IMG/VR virus record: IMGVR_UViG_3300030108_003700
Location: 1-21,464 of that record
DNA length: 21,464 bases
Strand: one strand, 5' to 3'
From: a virus
Each line of letters starts with the position of its first letter. Position 1 is the first letter of the stretch. Below the pieces are notes generated by a model. The model was not told the origin of the DNA. It did no database searches and saw only the letters and a program-made list of their open reading frames with translations. Below are positions 13,079 through 21,464 of the stretch, in pieces. Made by a program: the position numbers and the translations under genes.

Positions 13079-13120
13079 TATCATTTGATTTTTTCAATAT
13101 TCGCATATAGTTATTATACG

Positions 13121-13138
13121 AGTCGGGTAAAACCGACT
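13121..13138 (+). promoter_or_regulatory. Leader hairpin upstream of the plus-strand gene
   Basis: AGTCGG (13121-13126) pairs with CCGACT (13133-13138) around a six-base GTAAAA loop. It stands out as GC-rich in an AT-rich gap. A possible -10 element (TATTAT, 13112-13117) lies just before it, without a convincing -35, so a transcript starting near 13124 would carry the hairpin at or near its 5' end. It could stabilise the message or, because TTTTA follows the stem, act as a weak attenuator. Which of these it does cannot be decided from sequence. Confidence 0.5.
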
Positions 13139-13165
13139 TTTATAGTAATAAAAGGGGGAAACACA

Positions 13166-13387
13166 ATGAAAAATACGATGGCTATGATAATGGAAGCGAT
13201 TACTGGAATTAAAGAAGTATTGCTTCACATTGTTGGTCTTGGGGTTCTCGTACAATTAATATTTGTAGGCGGATTCCTAGGTATGGATATTGTTGGTAAT
13301 TTAATTAATTTAGTGAATCTGATTGCAGGCGCAGGATTCGCTGGATTTATATCACTATTGGTGATATTAGGATTACTCAATAAATAA
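13166..13387 (+). CDS. Small two-span membrane protein, the only plus-strand gene
   Basis: This is a 73-residue protein starting MKNTMAMIMEAITGIKEVLL. The ATG at 13166 is chosen because AAAGGGGG ends seven bases upstream; an in-frame ATG at 13085 would place the leader hairpin inside the gene and has no such site. After an amphipathic N-terminus there are two hydrophobic segments, about residues 18-38 and 43-70, the latter Gly-rich (NLIAGAGFAGFISLLVILG). The charged residues cluster in the first 21 positions. The gene has its own leader hairpin and a perfect terminator 10 bases after its stop. Size and topology would fit a holin-like or other small phage membrane protein, but nothing in the sequence proves this. 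Its orientation opposes all neighbours, suggesting separately timed expression. Confidence 0.8.
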   Translation: MKNTMAMIMEAITGIKEVLLHIVGLGVLVQLIFVGGFLGMDIVGNLINLVNLIAGAGFAGFISLLVILGLLNK

Positions 13388-13397
13388 AGGTGGATTC

Positions 13398-13425
13398 AAA
13401 AGGGCAGTAGAAATACTGCCCTTTT
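13398..13425. terminator. Perfect 12-bp hairpin, bidirectional intrinsic terminator
   Basis: AAAAGGGCAGTA (13398-13409) and TACTGCCCTTTT (13414-13425) form a perfect 12-bp stem with a GAAA tetraloop. On the plus strand it sits 10 bases after the stop of the small membrane protein gene and ends in TTTT. On the minus strand it begins 3 bases after the stop of the sigma gene and also ends in TTTT. It therefore lies between two converging genes and can stop both transcripts. Confidence 0.92.
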
Positions 13426-13428
13426 AAT

Positions 13429-14154
13429 TTACAAATTGTCCCAACTACCTGTCCACTTGGTTTCAATTGAACCAGTAGCTAAATAATTCTTTTGTAAATT
13501 GTTATGATGTTTTTTTAAAACATTTATAACTCTAGTAATATGTTGTGTATTACTTCCGGTCATTTCTCTAATCAAAATATATAATGCCTTCTTATTGAAG
13601 TTCTCAATATTTTTTCTATTCTCCATTAGATATAAAACTGAATTAGCAACATCAATATCTTGTTTTCTTTTAAACACCGTAGTTAGATTGTTTGTCCAAT
13701 ACTCAACAAACATATCCATATATTCTTTTTTAGCATCCAACAAATCTTCTCGAGCTGATTCTGTGATTGGGTCTCTTTTGTAATCAGTAACTTCTTCACC
13801 TTGATGTTGTTTAAGTTTTTTGTAATTATTGTTATTGTGTAAGATAAGATAATTCTTAGCGACTATACTGAAATAACTAAATGCCTTACCTTTACCTTCA
13901 GTAAACTTATGCATATTCATATACAAGAAACTAACCACCTCGTGTTTAACATCTTCACTCGGAACATCAAAGTAATAAAACTTAAATGTATGAATAATGT
14001 TTTCAGCCAACTTCTCAAAAGGTGTTCTAATATGTTCATTATAAATTCGTTCCCTCATATGTGGACGAGTTTCTTTATTATGTCTAATAACTGCTTTCTC
14101 TGTATCATCAGTAAAGTAATATCTTGTTGAACCTTTTTTGGCTTTTCTTGGCAT
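13429..14154 (-). CDS. 55: gp55-like late-transcription sigma factor
   Basis: This 241-residue protein is related to T4 gp55, the minimal sigma subunit that directs host RNA polymerase to late promoters. T4 gp55 is shorter (185 residues). The family signature is visible as VPSEDVKHEVVSFLYMNMHK at about residues 64-83, followed by FTEGKGKAFSYFSIVAKNYL and then the basic stretch HNNNNYKKLKQH; this corresponds to sigma region 2. The C-terminus (about 170-230) is helical with ALYILIREMTGSNTQHITRV, reminiscent of a helix-turn-helix, and ends with a short hydrophobic/acidic tail. It is coupled by TAATG to the small membrane protein gene upstream and ends at the terminator hairpin. The TATAAATA site nearby would be its target. 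Confidence 0.88.
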   Translation of the reverse strand: MPRKAKKGSTRYYFTDDTEKAVIRHNKETRPHMRERIYNEHIRTPFEKLAENIIHTFKFYYFDVPSEDVKHEVVSFLYMNMHKFTEGKGKAFSYFSIVAKNYLILHNNNNYKKLKQHQGEEVTDYKRDPITESAREDLLDAKKEYMDMFVEYWTNNLTTVFKRKQDIDVANSVLYLMENRKNIENFNKKALYILIREMTGSNTQHITRVINVLKKHHNNLQKNYLATGSIETKWTGSWDNL

Positions 14155-14405
14155 TATAACTCCTCTTCTGTTATTGTGTTTAACTCATCCATAGCTTCTT
14201 TGATAGTGCTAAATACTGAACCGACTTCATCGTCAGATTCAAAGTGCCCAGTTCTATCGACTTGGTCTAATAGTTGTTTAGTATCTTGAATTCTTTGTGC
14301 ATAATTTTCAATCCAAGTTTCTAATCGTTCTACTTTTCTTGTTAGATTGAATGTAGTCCAACCTAATGTTAATGCGATTAATCCTAAAATTATTTCAAGT
14401 ATCAT
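14154..14405 (-). CDS. Small single-span membrane protein with coiled-coil tail
   Basis: This 83-residue protein has an N-terminal hydrophobic segment (residues 2-19, ILEIILGLIALTLGWTTF) followed by a charged, heptad-like helix (LTRKVERLETWIENYAQRIQ, DTKQLLDQVD) and an acidic C-terminus. The layout suggests an inner-membrane anchor with a cytoplasmic coiled coil. The start overlaps the upstream HD gene as ATGA, and its stop overlaps the sigma gene start as TAATG, so it is translationally coupled on both sides. No family is recognised; it could tether a partner protein to the membrane. Confidence 0.8.
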   Translation of the reverse strand: MILEIILGLIALTLGWTTFNLTRKVERLETWIENYAQRIQDTKQLLDQVDRTGHFESDDEVGSVFSTIKEAMDELNTITEEEL

Positions 14406-15190
14406 TTCTTTGCCTCCCCAAATAGTTCATTAAATATATCTTTAGCGTCTGTTGACTTTGTGAACTTTTCTTTTACTTCTGTATCAACCGCATCTTTAAT
14501 TTTGTTTACTGACTTCTGAACCTTTTGTGATTCTTTTTTATCTTCACGATGCCACTCGTCGTATTCAGTATGAGTCGCCATCATATCTGCTTGATGTATT
14601 ATGTAAGCGATATTACTCTTTAGTCTCCAAGCTGGATTATATCCTTTTAGATACTTTTCGTTAGCGTCTTCATACAATCCGTCAGCTAGTTTTAATCCAA
14701 GATATTCCCACTCTGACATTTTAAGTCCGTAGTGTTGTAGGATGTAAAGTGCTCTATCTGTAACATTCATATAAGATGATAGATTATCATTATGTGTGTA
14801 AATCTCACCCATATTTTTTACTCTCCAATCATTGTCTTGGATTACATAATAATCATTTCCTTCAACATCCCCAATCTTACCCAAGTCGTGGTGCATAGCT
14901 GCGAATACTAATTCTTCATCAGTAAAGTTTATCATCGCTCCATTTGATTCCCAGACTTCTTTTATCTGTCTGGACATTTTGACCACGTGTAAAATGTGTT
15001 CTACATAACCACCAACCATTGCGTTGTGAAATGCTTTTTTAGCACTCGCTGGTGCCACGACCATTCTGTCTTCTAATTCATCATACATTTTATTTAGTTT
15101 TGCTAATCTTTCACCATCAAATGTATCATTGATAATTTGTCTTAATTCAGACCAATTATCTTGTATTTGTTTTTCTGTTAATTGCTTCAT
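14402..15190 (-). CDS. HD-domain metal-dependent phosphohydrolase/nuclease
   Basis: This 262-residue protein carries an HD domain with all expected metal ligands. His55 lies in FHNAMVGGYVEHILHVV (His65 is also conserved), His101-Asp102 in AAMHHDLGKIGD, and a distal Asp202 in YIIHQADMMATH. The 'H-x6-GG-x-x-EH-x-L' pattern resembles the HD domain of YhaM-type 3'-5' exoribonucleases, but the nucleic-acid-binding OB-fold of YhaM is missing. Possible substrates are therefore nucleotides, cyclic nucleotides or nucleic acid. Residues 205-262 are charged and helical. It overlaps its neighbours by 4 bases on each side (ATGA), placing it between the glycosyltransferase and the small membrane protein. 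A role in nucleotide turnover during DNA modification or host takeover is inference. Confidence 0.85.
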   Translation of the reverse strand: MKQLTEKQIQDNWSELRQIINDTFDGERLAKLNKMYDELEDRMVVAPASAKKAFHNAMVGGYVEHILHVVKMSRQIKEVWESNGAMINFTDEELVFAAMHHDLGKIGDVEGNDYYVIQDNDWRVKNMGEIYTHNDNLSSYMNVTDRALYILQHYGLKMSEWEYLGLKLADGLYEDANEKYLKGYNPAWRLKSNIAYIIHQADMMATHTEYDEWHREDKKESQKVQKSVNKIKDAVDTEVKEKFTKSTDAKDIFNELFGEAKK

Positions 15191-16521
15191 TTATTTATAA
15201 CCTCATATCTATCTTTTGTTAATTTTATATCTTTTTCATTTCTTAGTCTATTTCTATAAGAAGTAAATTTTATCCTAATACCCCAGTTTCCCATATAGTC
15301 TAGTATTTCTTTTTTAGTAACTGATTTTTTATCTCTAATAAAATTTACTATTCTATCATATGATTCTGTTTTACTGATTGTTTTTAGATTGTCAATAGCG
15401 TTTTGAAATGTTGTATTTATTTTATTAATTTGTTTATCCCACTTACTATCTTCAAATCTTTGTATTGATTTTTTTGAATACTCATTTCTAAACTCATCAT
15501 CATCCAATACTTTGTTTATTAGTTCAAGAAAGTCATCTGAGTCTTTGTAATATATTCCAGCTTCATCTGCTAACTCGTGATAACTTCCGTCATCTGAAAA
15601 CATATAAGGAACTCCAACTGACATTCCGTCCGTAGCAGATACTGCCCAACCTTCATACTTTTGTTTACAACAAACACCAACTTTACAAGAAGACAATTTT
15701 GAAAAATAACCAAACCTATCATATTTATCATTCGTCATATATTCTTTATCAATCGAATCTGCTAATGGAATCCACACTACAAAGTCTTTTCTTTGTTCCC
15801 AAAGTTTATCCATTTGCTCTACAAACCAAGGATAGTTTTTGTATGTATGTGGTCTATGATTGTAAACTATAATATTTTTATCAGTAGTTTGCTTTTCATA
15901 GTTTGGTGTTTCCCATCCAAGATAATGTGGTTCAAGAATATCATCTAGTCTTTTAACTACACTATCATTAAAATGTTCCCTAGCATTTTTTAACACAAGT
16001 TGCTTTTGAGCTTCTGTATTGATACCACATTTTTCTTGTTGTAGTAAACCAATGATATTAAATACTAGACCAACTTCATATTCATAGTTTGTTATTTCTT
16101 TGAACTCAGTCCAATGAGTATATCCTATGATTGTGGGTTCTATATTTGTTGTATTATAGAGTAGGTTTTTTAGTTGTCCAGTATGCTCTGGTAAATGTGA
16201 ATACACAATATCATAATCACTATTTTTCCAGTCGACTGCTTTTAGAACTTCTTTAAATGGAAATGACATACGCATAGAATTTGGATATGTCAATTGTGGG
16301 ACGATTAATTGTTCAGTATTATCAAATTGTAAACTTGGTATGAGTTCTGGTGATAATATTGTCCAATCTAAATCATCCCTTATTTTATTCATCTCTTTGA
16401 TGATATTTCCTAAGACAACAACATAACTATCTTTTTCTAAATCTTGCTGAAAAGTTATATTTGGATATACAAGTATTTTATACTTGACTTCCTTGTCATT
16501 GGTATCGAATCTGAAAGACAT
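15187..16521 (-). CDS. GT-B glycosyltransferase with C-terminal winged-helix-like region
   Basis: This is a 444-residue protein. Residues about 1-380 look like a GT-B fold: N-terminal strands KYKILVYPNITFQQ and DIVYSHLPEHTG, then a second half with NIIVYNHRPHTYKNYPWFVE and DFVVWIPLAD. The nucleotide-sugar site resembles family GT4 (KYEGWAVSATDGMSVGVPYM, then DDGSYHELADEAGIYY), where the acidic residues usually bind the donor sugar. Residues about 385-444 (SYDRIVNFIRDKKSVTKKEI, LDYMGNWGIRIKFTSYRNRL, then a basic hairpin) look like a winged helix-turn-helix, unusual for a cell-surface transferase and suggestive of DNA as acceptor. The first 30 residues contain no signal peptide. It overlaps both neighbours (TAATG and ATGA). 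T4 keeps its alpha-glucosyltransferase gene close to gene 55, a similar arrangement. Glycan or DNA acceptor remains unproven. Confidence 0.72.
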   Translation of the reverse strand: MSFRFDTNDKEVKYKILVYPNITFQQDLEKDSYVVVLGNIIKEMNKIRDDLDWTILSPELIPSLQFDNTEQLIVPQLTYPNSMRMSFPFKEVLKAVDWKNSDYDIVYSHLPEHTGQLKNLLYNTTNIEPTIIGYTHWTEFKEITNYEYEVGLVFNIIGLLQQEKCGINTEAQKQLVLKNAREHFNDSVVKRLDDILEPHYLGWETPNYEKQTTDKNIIVYNHRPHTYKNYPWFVEQMDKLWEQRKDFVVWIPLADSIDKEYMTNDKYDRFGYFSKLSSCKVGVCCKQKYEGWAVSATDGMSVGVPYMFSDDGSYHELADEAGIYYKDSDDFLELINKVLDDDEFRNEYSKKSIQRFEDSKWDKQINKINTTFQNAIDNLKTISKTESYDRIVNFIRDKKSVTKKEILDYMGNWGIRIKFTSYRNRLRNEKDIKLTKDRYEVINK

Positions 16522-17756
16522 TATTTAATACTTTCCATATTAACATTAATCTCTCCGTTTAATTCTTTAACATCACCATAAACAACTTTATAGTTCTTTT
16601 TGTCGTTACTATGGTTTTTATAAACATTCTTAATTGGTAACTTATGACCGGACATAATACCACCACCAGTTCTTTCCCAATCTTCTTGGGTTAATGTTGT
16701 GAATATTACACACCAATGTGATGCGGTTTCATCATAAGTAATAAGAATATATTGACCTTCTCGAATACCTTTACCACCTTTCCAGTTAGTCTTTTTTCCT
16801 TGGAACTTAGCTACTTTTATCTCAACCTTATCTTCAATATCTCTATGATAAATATCTGGGTCAGTTGGGTGTCCAGTAGCTGCGACAACATCGTGTCCTT
16901 CTGACTTTAGAACACGAGCAATAATCATCTCACTTAAGTGTGAAATAATCCCTGAAATAGAACCATCTGTAAAATCCTTGAATGGTTCATAGTCTTCACC
17001 ATCAACTTTAGTGCTTATTTCTAAAGTAGAAATAATCGTATTATAGATTCTATTGAATGAAATACTAAACACATCATTTGTGTAAATTTCTGTCCAGTCT
17101 CTATCAAGATTGTTAGAAGTTATAACCTTTACTTTGTTTTTACCCATAGCTTCATCGTGGGCAGATTTAACTGACATATCGCCATCATCTACTTTTTTAA
17201 GTAAATCTTTTCCGTTTACACTATTCTTGATATCTCTAAGTTTTTTAAGAGTCCCCATACTTGTTCCCAAGTCTTTAATATGGGAATCTCTTTCTTTAGG
17301 TGGTCTCGCTACACCATACTCATCCATATACGCTTTCTCAGCGACATCAAACTCATTCAGTTTTACTGATGGTTTCATATCACGATATATGTTAGTGCTC
17401 GTTGTTGTTCTGAAGTTTGAATATGGTTTGTCATCACTTGGATATTCTTCTTGAGACATAGTAATCCAAACCTCATCGAGTCCAGCTAATTTAGCAGCCG
17501 ATGTTCTGGTGTGTCCTGCTTCAATGAGTCCGTCAGGCCAAATAATTATAGCCGCTGAATTTGGAACTAATCCTCTTCCAACTCTATCCTTCATACTATC
17601 ACATATTTCAACTTGTTTAGATGTCTCTTCATCAATATTGTCGTATATCTTTTTGTTAAGTTTGTTTGGTGTAAAGTCATTTGGGTCTGCAAACAACTTT
17701 ACCTCACCATTAATTTTCTTTTTTATTATTTTTATTTTATTTTTTATTTTATTCAT
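16521..17756 (-). CDS. ParB/Srx-like domain fused to PD-(D/E)xK nuclease
   Basis: This 411-residue protein starts MNKIKNKIKIIKKK. The ATG at 17756 is chosen because it overlaps the upstream stop as ATGA and has AAAGGA nine bases before it; an upstream in-frame ATG at 17798 would overlap the previous gene by 46 bases. Residues about 18-110 are ParB-like, with GLIEAGHTRTSAAKLAGL at 76-93 (Gly-His-x-Arg box). Residues 130-205 are helical and basic, similar to a ParB HTH region. Residues 265-365 resemble a restriction-endonuclease fold: Glu276 in a helix, Pro300-Asp301, then Glu312-Ile-Lys314, with a Lys/Gly-rich KKTNWKGGKG loop and QYILITYD strand following. This fits a PD-(D/E)xK catalytic core. 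It lies between the DUF4338 and glycosyltransferase genes. DNA cleavage is likely; target unknown. Confidence 0.72.
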   Translation of the reverse strand: MNKIKNKIKIIKKKINGEVKLFADPNDFTPNKLNKKIYDNIDEETSKQVEICDSMKDRVGRGLVPNSAAIIIWPDGLIEAGHTRTSAAKLAGLDEVWITMSQEEYPSDDKPYSNFRTTTSTNIYRDMKPSVKLNEFDVAEKAYMDEYGVARPPKERDSHIKDLGTSMGTLKKLRDIKNSVNGKDLLKKVDDGDMSVKSAHDEAMGKNKVKVITSNNLDRDWTEIYTNDVFSISFNRIYNTIISTLEISTKVDGEDYEPFKDFTDGSISGIISHLSEMIIARVLKSEGHDVVAATGHPTDPDIYHRDIEDKVEIKVAKFQGKKTNWKGGKGIREGQYILITYDETASHWCVIFTTLTQEDWERTGGGIMSGHKLPIKNVYKNHSNDKKNYKVVYGDVKELNGEINVNMESIK

Positions 17757-18943
17757 CGTCCTATATCCTTTAAGTATTTTTCTTTTGCTTGTTCCCAAGA
17801 GATGTTAATCATTCCGGAATAGAATAATTTTTCGGGTTTTATTTTATTTTGTTCCATTAGTTTAGTGTATCGATTTATTGCCTTTCGCTTCCACCAAGTT
17901 TCAATGTACTCAACATCTCTTTGATACATTGACCTCATTACTAAGTCTTCTTCTTTTATTTCACTTCTAAGAAATTCTTTTCCATTTTGATATATGTTAG
18001 CAAAGTAACAACCTCGTTTAAATCCGTGTTCATACTTTGCTCTTTTGATACCTAACTCTTGATATATCATTTGTATAATTTTTTGTTTGATACCTGTAAC
18101 TGGTTGTCCGTTTGCTCTTACACCAACTTTACTATCGTATTCTTCTCGTTTATTATCTTTAATCCATTGGTGCCAAGTATCATAAAATTTGTCATCTGGT
18201 TTTAAACTAATTTTACCTTTGGTTTCACCGAGAGTTTTCCATTGTGGTATTCCATTATACATTGAGTGGATACCATACAAAGCAGTAGTGGATATACCGA
18301 CTAATGTTTGTCCATACATTTTTTTCCAAGTATCACGAACTACTTTTGAAGTAACCATTTGTGCAACTAACTTACCACCCAACATATTATATCCAAGTGG
18401 TTGAACACAACATATCGTAGTTCCGATAGCAGTATGATTTAGTTTTCCATCTTGGAATTTATTTTCTTTTGTCCAGCCGATTAAAGTATCTCTAACTCCT
18501 AAACTCGTTACATCACTTCCTAAACAAATCAAACCTAACACTTTGCCAGATGATTTATCTTTTACATAAAATTTTACATTACGACCTGGATTAGCTGTGA
18601 ACTCCATTGAGTGAATTAGTCGTCTTGTGATAATCCAATCTTCGTTTGCTTGCGCATTACCTTGTTCAACCGGTTCGACGATTGGTTCTATTGAATTGAT
18701 TTCTTGAATAGTGAGTTCTTTATTATAGATGTCTGTTGGTGTCCATAAAGTTCTTTCTAATCTATCAATTGTGTCAGCTCTATCCATAAAAAATTGTGGG
18801 TCTTTATTAAACTCTTCCCACTTCTTCCACAAAGTAGATTCTTCTACTGACATCTCTTTTAGAAAATCCATATTATCTATGAACTTTTGTTTCTCTGCTT
18901 CGTAATTAAACTCTGCTTCACCAAAGAAATTTTCGAAACTCAT
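17753..18943 (-). CDS. DUF4338 (DruA-like) protein, first gene of the early operon
   Basis: This 396-residue protein shows the ordered motifs I associate with DUF4338, the family of the Druantia protein DruA: a Gly120-Arg121 pair and a strand before GLICLGSD (137-144), then RDTLIGW (151-157), TTICCVQPLGYNMLGGKLVA (175-194), WKKMYG (206-211), and TTALYGIHSMYNGIPQWKTL (219-238) ending in GETKG. The region has an acetyltransferase-like look; a relation to Mom-type DNA-modifying enzymes is possible but not verified. About 100 N-terminal residues are charged and helical, and 140 C-terminal residues are basic and helical (KIIQMIYQELGIKRAKYEHG). Translation starts at 18943, about 38 bases behind the -10 of a near-consensus promoter. 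It overlaps the ParB-nuclease gene by 4 bases. Biochemical activity is unknown. Confidence 0.65.
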   Translation of the reverse strand: MSFENFFGEAEFNYEAEKQKFIDNMDFLKEMSVEESTLWKKWEEFNKDPQFFMDRADTIDRLERTLWTPTDIYNKELTIQEINSIEPIVEPVEQGNAQANEDWIITRRLIHSMEFTANPGRNVKFYVKDKSSGKVLGLICLGSDVTSLGVRDTLIGWTKENKFQDGKLNHTAIGTTICCVQPLGYNMLGGKLVAQMVTSKVVRDTWKKMYGQTLVGISTTALYGIHSMYNGIPQWKTLGETKGKISLKPDDKFYDTWHQWIKDNKREEYDSKVGVRANGQPVTGIKQKIIQMIYQELGIKRAKYEHGFKRGCYFANIYQNGKEFLRSEIKEEDLVMRSMYQRDVEYIETWWKRKAINRYTKLMEQNKIKPEKLFYSGMINISWEQAKEKYLKDIGR

Positions 18944-18980: not shown

Positions 18981-19009
18981 AATATACAACATTTATTTTG
19001 CTTTGTCAA
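18981..19009 (-). promoter_or_regulatory. Sigma70-type promoter for the DUF4338-to-sigma operon
   Basis: On the minus strand TTGACA (19009-19004) is followed after exactly 17 bases by TATATT (18986-18981). The -35 is a perfect match and the -10 matches five of six positions of the bacterial housekeeping consensus. It lies in the 75-base gap between the 3D-domain gene and the DUF4338 gene and points into the latter. This suggests expression by unmodified host polymerase, meaning early in infection. Confidence 0.8.
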
Positions 19010-19601: not shown

Positions 19602-20252
19602 TTAAAATTTTTTATCAAAGTGCTCTTCATAAATAAAATCTTTTTTTCTATTACCCTTCATTAGTTTAAAGTCATTTGGAACACCAAATTCATATCCAAA
19701 TAATTTAACATCTGCTCTAAAATAATGTCCTACTAAAACTATATCATCAATAGTTCTGTAAAAGTCTGTGTAATCATATTGTGGATTTGTATTTAATTTA
19801 GGTAAAGGTTCACACGATAGTTTTTCTAAATCGCAAATTTCTTCCCATTGTTCATCAAGTTTTTCAAAGTTCATAACATAGTCAATACTTTCCTCAGCCA
19901 CAAGAGAATCTTGTTCCATTAACCATTTACATTGTGGCATTGAATCAAAAGTTTGCATATTAAATTGTATGGCACCTTTTCTTAACCAAAGATAAAAAGG
20001 AGCGCCCTTTTGGTCGTAACCTTTTTGTTGTCTATATACATAATGACTAACCATTCGTTCCCAAGGATTTCTTACGATTGCAATTTTAATAGCATTATCA
20101 AAAATAGGTTCTGGTGTATAAGCTTGTAAAACCGACAATGGATAATGTTTAGTTTTTTTTGGTTCTATTTCTAAAACTTTATTCATACTTGTTCCAGCGT
20201 TCTTAGGAATATGAATGAACAATACATTGTGTTTTGCGGAATAATTATACAT
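19602..20252 (-). CDS. Phage-encoded sulfotransferase
   Basis: The 216-residue product starts MYNYSAKHNVLFIHIPKNAG. The ATG at 20252 is preferred over an upstream in-frame TTG at 20258 because AAAGAAGG ends six bases before the ATG and touches the TTG. The PAPS-binding signatures are both visible: HIPKNAGTS at residues 14-22 (5'-phosphosulfate loop) and IVRNPWERMVSHY at about 59-71 (3'-phosphate loop, Arg61 and Ser69). The rest, including YVMNFEKLDEQWEEICD and the typical LPKLNTNPQYDYTDFYR near the C-terminus, fits the sulfotransferase family 2-like group. It would transfer sulfate from PAPS to an OH group of a glycan or small molecule. It overlaps the ATP-grasp gene by 8 bases. Target is unknown; virion or host glycans are candidates. 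Confidence 0.85.
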   Translation of the reverse strand: MYNYSAKHNVLFIHIPKNAGTSMNKVLEIEPKKTKHYPLSVLQAYTPEPIFDNAIKIAIVRNPWERMVSHYVYRQQKGYDQKGAPFYLWLRKGAIQFNMQTFDSMPQCKWLMEQDSLVAEESIDYVMNFEKLDEQWEEICDLEKLSCEPLPKLNTNPQYDYTDFYRTIDDIVLVGHYFRADVKLFGYEFGVPNDFKLMKGNRKKDFIYEEHFDKKF

Positions 20253-21138
20253 TACCAACCTTCTTTATTATAAAATCTACCATCTGTTCAGCTATGTTAC
20301 TTTTTGTATATTTTTCCATACCTTGAAATCCAGGCGCTGAATTAACTTCACATATAACATAACTACCATTATTAAATAACAAGTCCACACCTGCTATATC
20401 TAAATTTAATAATCTTGCACACTCACCACCAATCCACTCAATGTCATCATCTATTTGATAAGGGATTGCTTCTCCGCCTCGTGTGATGTTTGCTCTGAAG
20501 TCTCCATCAACTGATTGTCTCATCATACAACCTACGACTTTACCATTAACAACTAACACTCTTAAATCTTTTCCTAATGAATCTTCAATACATTCTTGTA
20601 TAATAATATTATATCTTGAATTAGTTAACTCTGCCATTTTCATTAATTGTCTAAATTGTTTTTTATCATCAACCATAAAAACACCACTACCATATGAACC
20701 ACTTAAGGTTTTAATTATCAATGGATATTTTAAATTCTTTTCAACCAACTCAATCTTAATTGGATGTTTAACTAACATAGTTTTAGGAACTGGTAGATTT
20801 GATTGTCCAAGAATTTGTTGTGAATATAACTTGTCTTTGACGGCGTCTATTGATTCACTACCATTTATCAATACAACACCTAATCTTTCTAAGTGTCTAA
20901 TGATTGCTTTGATAAAGTATGTGGTTCCACTACCTGTTCTTGGTAATACAAAATCAGGTAATTTTCTTGGTACACCCTCAACCAATATAGACTTTCTATC
21001 ATCTCTATCGACAAATATATCTACATCTTTTGGATTAACTACACGAACCTTGATATCTTGTTTTTCAAATTCTTCTACGAGTCTTTGAACTTCGTGATTT
21101 TCACCTAATTGTTTTTTGTGTATTATCCAACCATTCAT
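20245..21138 (-). CDS. RimK-like ATP-grasp ligase
   Basis: This 297-residue protein is an ATP-grasp enzyme close to RimK/LysX in layout. An N-terminal pre-ATP domain (residues 1-95, ending near VVLINGSESI) is followed by Lys102 in AVKDKLYSQQIL and LPVPKTMLV. Next come the ATP-binding Lys143 and the Gly-rich loop (KTLSGSYGSGVFMV, 143-156), the adenine-side QECIE (181-185), DLRVLVVNGKVVG (191-203), FRANITRGGEA (214-224), and the metal ligands Asp252, Glu264 and Asn266 (VDLLF, ICEVNSAPG). RimK-type enzymes add glutamate or other amino acids to a protein or small-molecule carboxylate. It sits between UvsE (4-base ATGA overlap) and the sulfotransferase, suggesting co-expression. The acceptor, possibly a host ribosomal protein or a peptide-like modification, is unknown. 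Confidence 0.85.
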   Translation of the reverse strand: MNGWIIHKKQLGENHEVQRLVEEFEKQDIKVRVVNPKDVDIFVDRDDRKSILVEGVPRKLPDFVLPRTGSGTTYFIKAIIRHLERLGVVLINGSESIDAVKDKLYSQQILGQSNLPVPKTMLVKHPIKIELVEKNLKYPLIIKTLSGSYGSGVFMVDDKKQFRQLMKMAELTNSRYNIIIQECIEDSLGKDLRVLVVNGKVVGCMMRQSVDGDFRANITRGGEAIPYQIDDDIEWIGGECARLLNLDIAGVDLLFNNGSYVICEVNSAPGFQGMEKYTKSNIAEQMVDFIIKKVGNV

Positions 21139-21464
21139 TTCATAAATCCTTCAATTGCTAATTCTTTGTGTTTAGCTTCTACCATAATATCTACATTATG
21201 TCCATAGGTATTTGGTAGTTGTTTAATTAGGTCTGAATGTGCTTGTGGTCTGATACTTTCATCTAATTGTTCCTTTGAACGAGATTCTGAATAATGAACC
21301 ACCGGAACGATATCATCAGGCCAAGTAGATATGGCAAGTTCTAACGCTTCTTGTTCCGATAGACCACCAGTGCAAAATCTGTGGTGATGATAGTCAAACA
21401 CAATAGGTATACCAATTCGTTTATATATTCCATCGTATAACTCCTTTACTGAATACATTGATGC
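21135..21464 (-). CDS. UV damage endonuclease UvsE/UVDE, N-terminus outside window
   Basis: An open frame enters the window at 21464 and ends at 21135, giving about 109 C-terminal residues. A Met at 21458 is probably internal, since UVDE proteins are near 300 residues and the homology is already in the middle of the fold. The metal-site motif GIPIVFDYHHHRF near residue 20 and VPVVHYSES about 35 residues later match the TIM-barrel active site of UV damage endonucleases, which nick DNA 5' of pyrimidine dimers and other lesions. The C-terminal helix-strand (HNVDIMVEAKHKELA) matches the family end with its conserved acidic residue. Its stop overlaps the ATP-grasp start by 4 bases. A DNA-repair role suits a phage of sunlit waters. 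Confidence 0.85.
   Translation of the reverse strand, partial: ASMYSVKELYDGIYKRIGIPIVFDYHHHRFCTGGLSEQEALELAISTWPDDIVPVVHYSESRSKEQLDESIRPQAHSDLIKQLPNTYGHNVDIMVEAKHKELAIEGFMK

Follow-up and report, generated by a model that had tools for sequence, protein, structure and literature searches.

DNA glucosylation of the T4 type is carried out by the products of a-gt and b-gt and goes together with the nucleases DenA and DenB, which act on host DNA. A variant of this glucosylation is described for RB69 (PMC6024577). GmrSD, BrxU and SspE are modification-sensing restriction enzymes that combine a DUF262 domain of ParB/Srx fold with an HNH domain (PMC4619093). T4-like phages also carry free-standing homing endonucleases of the Seg and Mob families (PMC2988022), and several nuclease families at one site together with sharp boundaries are typical of such enzymes (PMC2988022, PMC10448857). 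Here we analyze a run of six minus-strand open reading frames (ORFs) at positions 13429-18943 of the virus record IMGVR_UViG_3300030108_003700 (21,464 bases, the whole stretch being referred to as ‘the window’). The run encodes a DruA-like protein, a ParB-nuclease, a glycosyltransferase (GT), an HD-domain protein, a small protein and a sigma-like protein, and a first-pass annotation had taken all six genes as one set acting on DNA. Comparison with relatives showed, at the level of sequence, that the meaningful unit is instead a two-gene cassette, inserted exactly between the DruA and HD genes and made up of GT and a variable gene, here termed X, which in the window is the ParB-nuclease gene.

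Relatives were collected with DruA, GT and HD relatives and the X genes themselves as anchors; for GT, 472 relatives were found in viral contigs, of which 80 were kept as anchors. In the close lineage, the interval between DruA and HD was filled in some records and empty in others, the two genes lying 0-6 nt apart or overlapping where it was empty. In filled intervals, the last gene was GT with a variable X directly before it. A total of 55 non-redundant intervals, a sample partly collected through GT, contained X and GT in 38 cases, GT only in 6 and neither gene in 11, with no case of X only. When only DruA or HD served as the anchor, the loci comprised at least 12 with X and GT, 1 with GT only, 11 that were empty and none with X only. 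In this lineage, X was never found without GT while GT without X occurs, a pattern similar to that of restriction-modification systems, in which the nuclease depends on the modifier. Elsewhere, the region upstream of HD holds islands of TAGT, thymidylate-synthase-like, asparagine-synthase-like, PLP-dependent and methyltransferase genes, families that would be expected in DNA hypermodification. In one record (L194:1296-5929), methyltransferase, thymidylate-synthase relative, asparagine-synthase-like and PALP genes stand in a row before HD and likely represent a base-hypermodification island.

The X position proved highly variable. The genes upstream of GT fell into 31 BLAST clusters, some of which were joined by profile comparison (the L002-type with the L025-type, and the GmrSD-type clusters with one another). 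The classes recognized were ParB-nucleases, GIY-YIG-ParB proteins (motifs read directly in the sequence, no Pfam match), proteins with GmrSD_N and HNH domains (e.g., in L104; not the X of the window), GHKL ATPases, Mom, D12 and N6/N4 methyltransferases and a relative of endonuclease VII. The record closest to the window (WIN) is L056, in which GT is 99% and HD 100% identical to those of the window and X is unrelated. Up to the TAATG stop/start overlap, the DNA of the two records cannot be aligned, and from exactly this point on it is ~98% identical; judged from this alignment, the difference is a precise gene-for-gene exchange of X. The closely related GTs of L070, L071, L072 and L075 carry a ParB-nuclease, a GHKL, a methyltransferase and a GmrSD-type X. 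Across the 102 sequences of a GT tree, 50 changes of X class were counted, compared with a mean of 74 for shuffled labels, so there is some clustering of X class on the tree. These comparisons showed that X is replaced far faster than GT, which is kept. Unrelated X genes of the GHKL and GIY-YIG-ParB classes in L004, L005, L024 and L062 begin with the same leader, MSRQVKRM, which looks as if the gene start were re-used in recombination.

The X-GT pair is not tied to one site, as its recurrence in the genomes of other phages showed. In a second phage group (records up to 178 kb), it lies between Mom-like genes and the DNA polymerase gene, again with a varied X. Other members of this group have the order Mom-Mom-DruA-GmrSD-GT or Mom-GmrSD-GT, and a third phage group has the order DruA-GmrSD-GT. 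Among the relatives, the neighbors of GT belong to DNA-acting families, namely Mom, DNA methyltransferases, TAGT glycosyltransferases, ParB-nucleases, GIY-YIG-ParB proteins and GmrSD-type nucleases. When loci from all anchors were pooled and non-redundant cases were counted from X, GT was directly downstream of 14 of the 19 ParB-nucleases, all GIY-YIG-ParB genes (6/6) and 23 of the 35 GmrSD-type genes, and DruA or Mom was directly upstream of X in about half of the visible cases. DruA or Mom, X and GT were found to co-occur in relatives rather than being scattered.

Two distant genomes add strength to an association of GT with ParB and with DruA or Mom. A contig of a metagenome-assembled genome (MAG) of Acidiferrobacteraceae with ordinary chromosomal genes (L244:5962-9344) encodes a 621-aa ParB-DruA fusion, convergent with a GT relative that is 40% identical to the GT of the window; the DruA part was matched at E 1e-21 and the ParB domain was read directly in the sequence. 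In a high-GC siphophage (L119:5507-8308), a ParB-like gene, Mom (E 3e-45) and GT stand in a row before the terminase gene. This GT is 45% identical to that of the window along its length, tail included; the ParB-like gene, without a Pfam match, was called by sequence inspection, and the context is a single case. No relatives of X or GT were found in cultured phages, and no relative was found in plasmids with a distant GT as query. The X-GT combination is not described in the literature searched, the coverage of which was partial.

The X gene of the window most likely starts at ATG 17756 (411 aa, with an ATGA overlap with the DruA stop) rather than at TTG 17798. Its product has no Pfam match and hence no GmrSD_N match, and sequence searches against solved structures gave nothing useful for this protein, DruA or HD. 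An AlphaFold2 (AF2) model built from 19 homologues (pLDDT 86, pTM 0.56) was compared with known folds. Residues ~18-208 match structures of ParB, KorB and Spo0J (Z ~10 for KorB/ParB), and residues ~216-411 match PD-(D/E)xK restriction enzymes, with Z 9.8 for NaeI and 8.3 for EcoRV, and also NhoI and DpnI. Residues E276, D301, E312 and K314 of the nuclease domain are invariant across the 19 homologues, as are the ParB-type residues G81, T83, R84, N122 and R125. The ParB fold is accompanied by the nucleotide-binding motifs conserved in this family of CTP-binding clamps, with the GHTR-like and N-x-x-R motifs invariant. The model and these residues indicate that X of the window is a ParB-fold domain fused to a domain of restriction-endonuclease fold, in agreement with the earlier ParB-PD-(D/E)xK assignment except for the start codon, which is corrected to ATG 17756.

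The GT of the window matched Glycos_transf_1 (PF00534, E 4e-9), and its AF2 model (pLDDT 89) has a GT-B fold, with chain 7qsg as the best match (Z 28.7). The C-terminal tail (residues 386-441) is modeled as three helices and a beta hairpin, a secondary structure that suggests a winged-helix-like arrangement; the earlier description of a glycosyltransferase with such a tail was thereby upheld. The Pfam families of T4 AGT and BGT did not match the window GT, which gave matches of the PF00534 type only, and T4-type GT families are not among the structural matches listed for it, which excludes nothing. The first gene of the run was likewise correctly named as DUF4338/DruA-like (PF14236, E 6e-24; PADLOC DruA, E 4e-26). 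DUF4338 has been described as a GNAT domain (PMC10853773); a profile comparison between DruA and Mom gave no match. A Druantia system was considered and rejected. The DruA domain is present, but no companion such as DruE was found near the DruA of the window, the neighbors of which are UvdE, RimK, a sulfotransferase, X and GT.

We hypothesize, with a confidence just short of even, that X-GT is a mobile two-gene DNA-conflict cassette in which the phage DNA is marked by GT and unmarked DNA is cut by X of the nuclease type. We infer that DNA is the substrate of GT and that cutting is gated by the mark. The cassette would usually act with an enzyme of the DruA or Mom type encoded just upstream. 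Guided by its DNA-binding-like tail and probably together with DruA or Mom, GT would add a sugar or a related group to bases of the phage DNA, and a nuclease-type X would cut DNA without this mark, either that of the host or that of co-infecting phages. In the window, X would cut through its EcoRV/NaeI-like nuclease, to which a ParB domain of the NTP-switch type is joined. One broad mark could shield against many different nucleases, and X would therefore be freely exchangeable; an X of the Mom or methyltransferase type would instead add a further mark. A more specific form, in which the cassette is a restriction-modification-like system carried by phages and based on glycosylation, with a rapidly replaced ParB/Srx-sensor nuclease and with GT (together with DruA or Mom) writing a shielding base mark, is proposed more tentatively and seems to us possible rather than probable. 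The domain content of the core agrees with the first-pass proposal of a set acting on DNA, and both of the roles it named, hypermodification and DNA attack, fit; the proposal did not hold for all six genes.

The pattern at X could also be produced by free-standing homing or exclusion endonucleases that are parked at a favorable site, cut relatives without them and spread by repair, with GT as cargo or neighbor. Unrelated nuclease families (GIY-YIG, HNH, EndoVII and PD-(D/E)xK) occupy one variable intergenic site at which close relatives lack the nuclease gene, as is the case for homing endonucleases. The breakpoints at X are very sharp, nuclease genes mark exchange boundaries in phages (PMC10448857), and one X had a PADLOC homing-endonuclease match. 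In T4, a-gt does lie near gene 55, as the first-pass annotation stated; it is on the downstream side, where the homing endonuclease gene mobB is also located, adjoining the a-gt region. X, however, keeps its place immediately before GT across several loci and lineages, which is not required of a homing gene, and GT and X are absent together from empty sites. Moreover, X can be Mom or a methyltransferase, which are incapable of homing, and several nuclease-type X carry ParB/Srx-like sensor motifs that are unusual for homing enzymes. We regard homing as the main rival, albeit an unlikely one. It can be combined with marking by GT, because the spread of a cassette would also be driven by its nuclease if that nuclease left marked DNA intact. 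It is improbable, in our judgment, that GT, DruA and Mom serve purely as anti-restriction DNA modification at a general hotspot where the X genes are unrelated passengers. The 6 intervals with GT and no X, and the known DNA-modification families that fill the site in other relatives, agree with this; X, however, recurs beside GT at separate loci, so that shared location alone cannot explain the pairing, and no X without GT was found in the close lineage.

Several observations weigh against a marking and cutting cassette. A nuclease role does not hold for every X, some being modification enzymes, and many X have no recognized domain. GmrSD-type X occurs without GT in other phages (12/35), DruA-X occurs without GT in L304, and the GT tail is missing in the second phage group (lineage 2). 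The ParB-DruA fusion is a single case among 369 genomes of the class of its MAG, with none in viral contigs. No thymidylate-synthase-family gene, and hence no recognizable dCMP hydroxymethylase, was found in 11 of the 15 larger records (one of 164.8 kb), which are possibly fragments. Finally, the fold of GT is a generic GT4 fold, and the substrates of its nearest matches among solved structures are small molecules or glycans. This last point would suit a GT that glycosylates a protein (the capsid or X itself) or a host surface sugar instead of DNA, and capsids have been suggested as targets of phage GTs (PMC4351075). We give little credence to such a substrate, since the neighbors of GT in several unrelated genomes are Mom, DruA, methyltransferases, nucleases and DNA polymerase, and the winged-helix-like C-terminal domain suggests DNA binding.

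The HD, small and sigma-like genes are the backbone of the lineage. They occur where X and GT are absent, and Flavobacterium phage immuto retains all three without either gene. Because of this persistence, the six genes were rejected as one functional operon. Throughout the close lineage, relatives fetched with DruA keep the order UvdE-RimK-203-DruA-HD-small-sigma. A pelagiphage origin was also considered and dropped, the baseplate and HD genes being closest to immuto and Microcystis phage Mel-JY01 instead. Support for the individual names varied: the score of the HD protein (19.3 bits) is under the Pfam cut-off of 22 bits, but its motif residues (H65, H101-D102 and D202) are invariant. The small protein has a weak Rz-spanin-like PHROG match (E 4e-4) and is syntenic in relatives. 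The gp55-like sigma factor named earlier is supported by synteny, whereas its profile match to T4/pelagiphage gp55 is marginal (E 7e-4, probability 26%). HD identity is 82-100% among most cassette-bearing close relatives and 61-74% in empty ones, although many relatives of either kind do not differ much in how close their DruA and sigma-like genes are. HD may have been exchanged together with the cassette, with L022 and L058 as exceptions.

The coordinates of the run are collected in the table. Neighboring genes are joined by 1- or 4-nt stop/start overlaps, as was read in the first place, and the terminator predicted at the end of the run is a strong hairpin (-19.8 kcal/mol, z -4.0 against shuffles). 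The sigma70-type promoter named earlier is a candidate at 19009-18981 with a consensus match of 11/12, but such matches are no commoner in the region than by chance (31 observed vs 38.5 expected).

Table. Features of the six-gene run and its flanks in the window.
Feature	Position	Strand	Basis and remarks
Sigma70-like promoter candidate (TTGACA-17-TATATT)	18981..19009	-	Upstream of DruA; 11/12 consensus match
DruA/DUF4338 protein, 396 aa, probable GNAT-type enzyme	17753..18943	-	First gene of the run; PF14236
X gene, ParB fold + PD-(D/E)xK fold, 411 aa	16521..17756	-	AF2 model, fold comparison, invariant residues
GT, GT-B (GT4-like) + C-terminal winged-helix-like domain	15187..16521	-	PF00534, AF2 model; constant partner of the cassette
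HD-domain phosphohydrolase, backbone	14402..15190	-	Directly downstream of the insertion site; conserved motif residues
Small protein, N-terminal hydrophobic segment + coiled coil, backbone	14154..14405	-	Weak PHROG match, synteny
gp55-like late sigma candidate, backbone	13429..14154	-	Synteny and weak profile match
Terminator hairpin between convergent genes	13396..13427	-	RNA fold

Upstream of the run, a sulfotransferase family gene (PF03567, 19602-20258) stands beside a RimK-like ATP-grasp ligase gene (20245-21138). The UvdE UV-endonuclease gene (21135-21458) is cut by the window end and has its full length of 304-308 aa in relatives. At the other end, a lone plus-strand gene (13085-13387), convergent with the operon, encodes a small hydrophobic protein that is 67-83% conserved in relatives.

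If the proposed marking and cutting cassette is real, T4-like and other phages would carry their own discrimination between self and non-self DNA with an interchangeable cutting module. Exclusion between marine phages that infect the same cell would then have a concrete basis in genes, and the cassettes would be rich in new enzymes that modify DNA or sense its modification. A search rule also follows from the pairing, by which the gene upstream of this GT would point to new DNA-conflict proteins, and whether DruA/DUF4338 modifies DNA can be put directly to the test.

Compared with the described systems, the locus shares with T4 glucosylation a phage GT-B enzyme and a GT gene near gene 55, and the proposed cassette would have in common with it the marking of self DNA plus nucleases that spare modified DNA. 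It differs in that T4 GT families were not matched in Pfam, no dCMP hydroxymethylase was recognized where searched, the nuclease is adjacent, ParB-linked and swapped, and DruA or Mom is involved. From Druantia it has the DruA/DUF4338 domain, but no other Druantia genes are nearby and DruA is here a gene of the phage backbone. Similar to GmrSD, BrxU and SspE, one class of X has GmrSD_N and HNH domains, and the X of the window joins a ParB-type domain to a nuclease; unlike them, the cassette is phage-borne and paired with GT, and the nuclease in the window is PD-(D/E)xK, not HNH, without GmrSD_N. Unrelated nuclease families at one intergenic site and sharp exchange boundaries are also known from the Seg and Mob homing endonucleases, whereas here two genes stay paired as a unit at several loci, X is not always a nuclease and ParB-type sensor domains are present. 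With regard to type II restriction-modification, the EcoRV/NaeI-like domain lies next to GT, which would be a DNA modifier on the proposed reading; the cassette of the window has no methyltransferase, and the partner is a glycosyltransferase. With phage hypermodification islands (Mom, TAGT, thymidylate-synthase-like and PLP enzymes), finally, the locus has in common that the same families fill the site or adjoin GT, and it differs from them in that GT stays constant while its partner, often a nuclease, is rapidly replaced.

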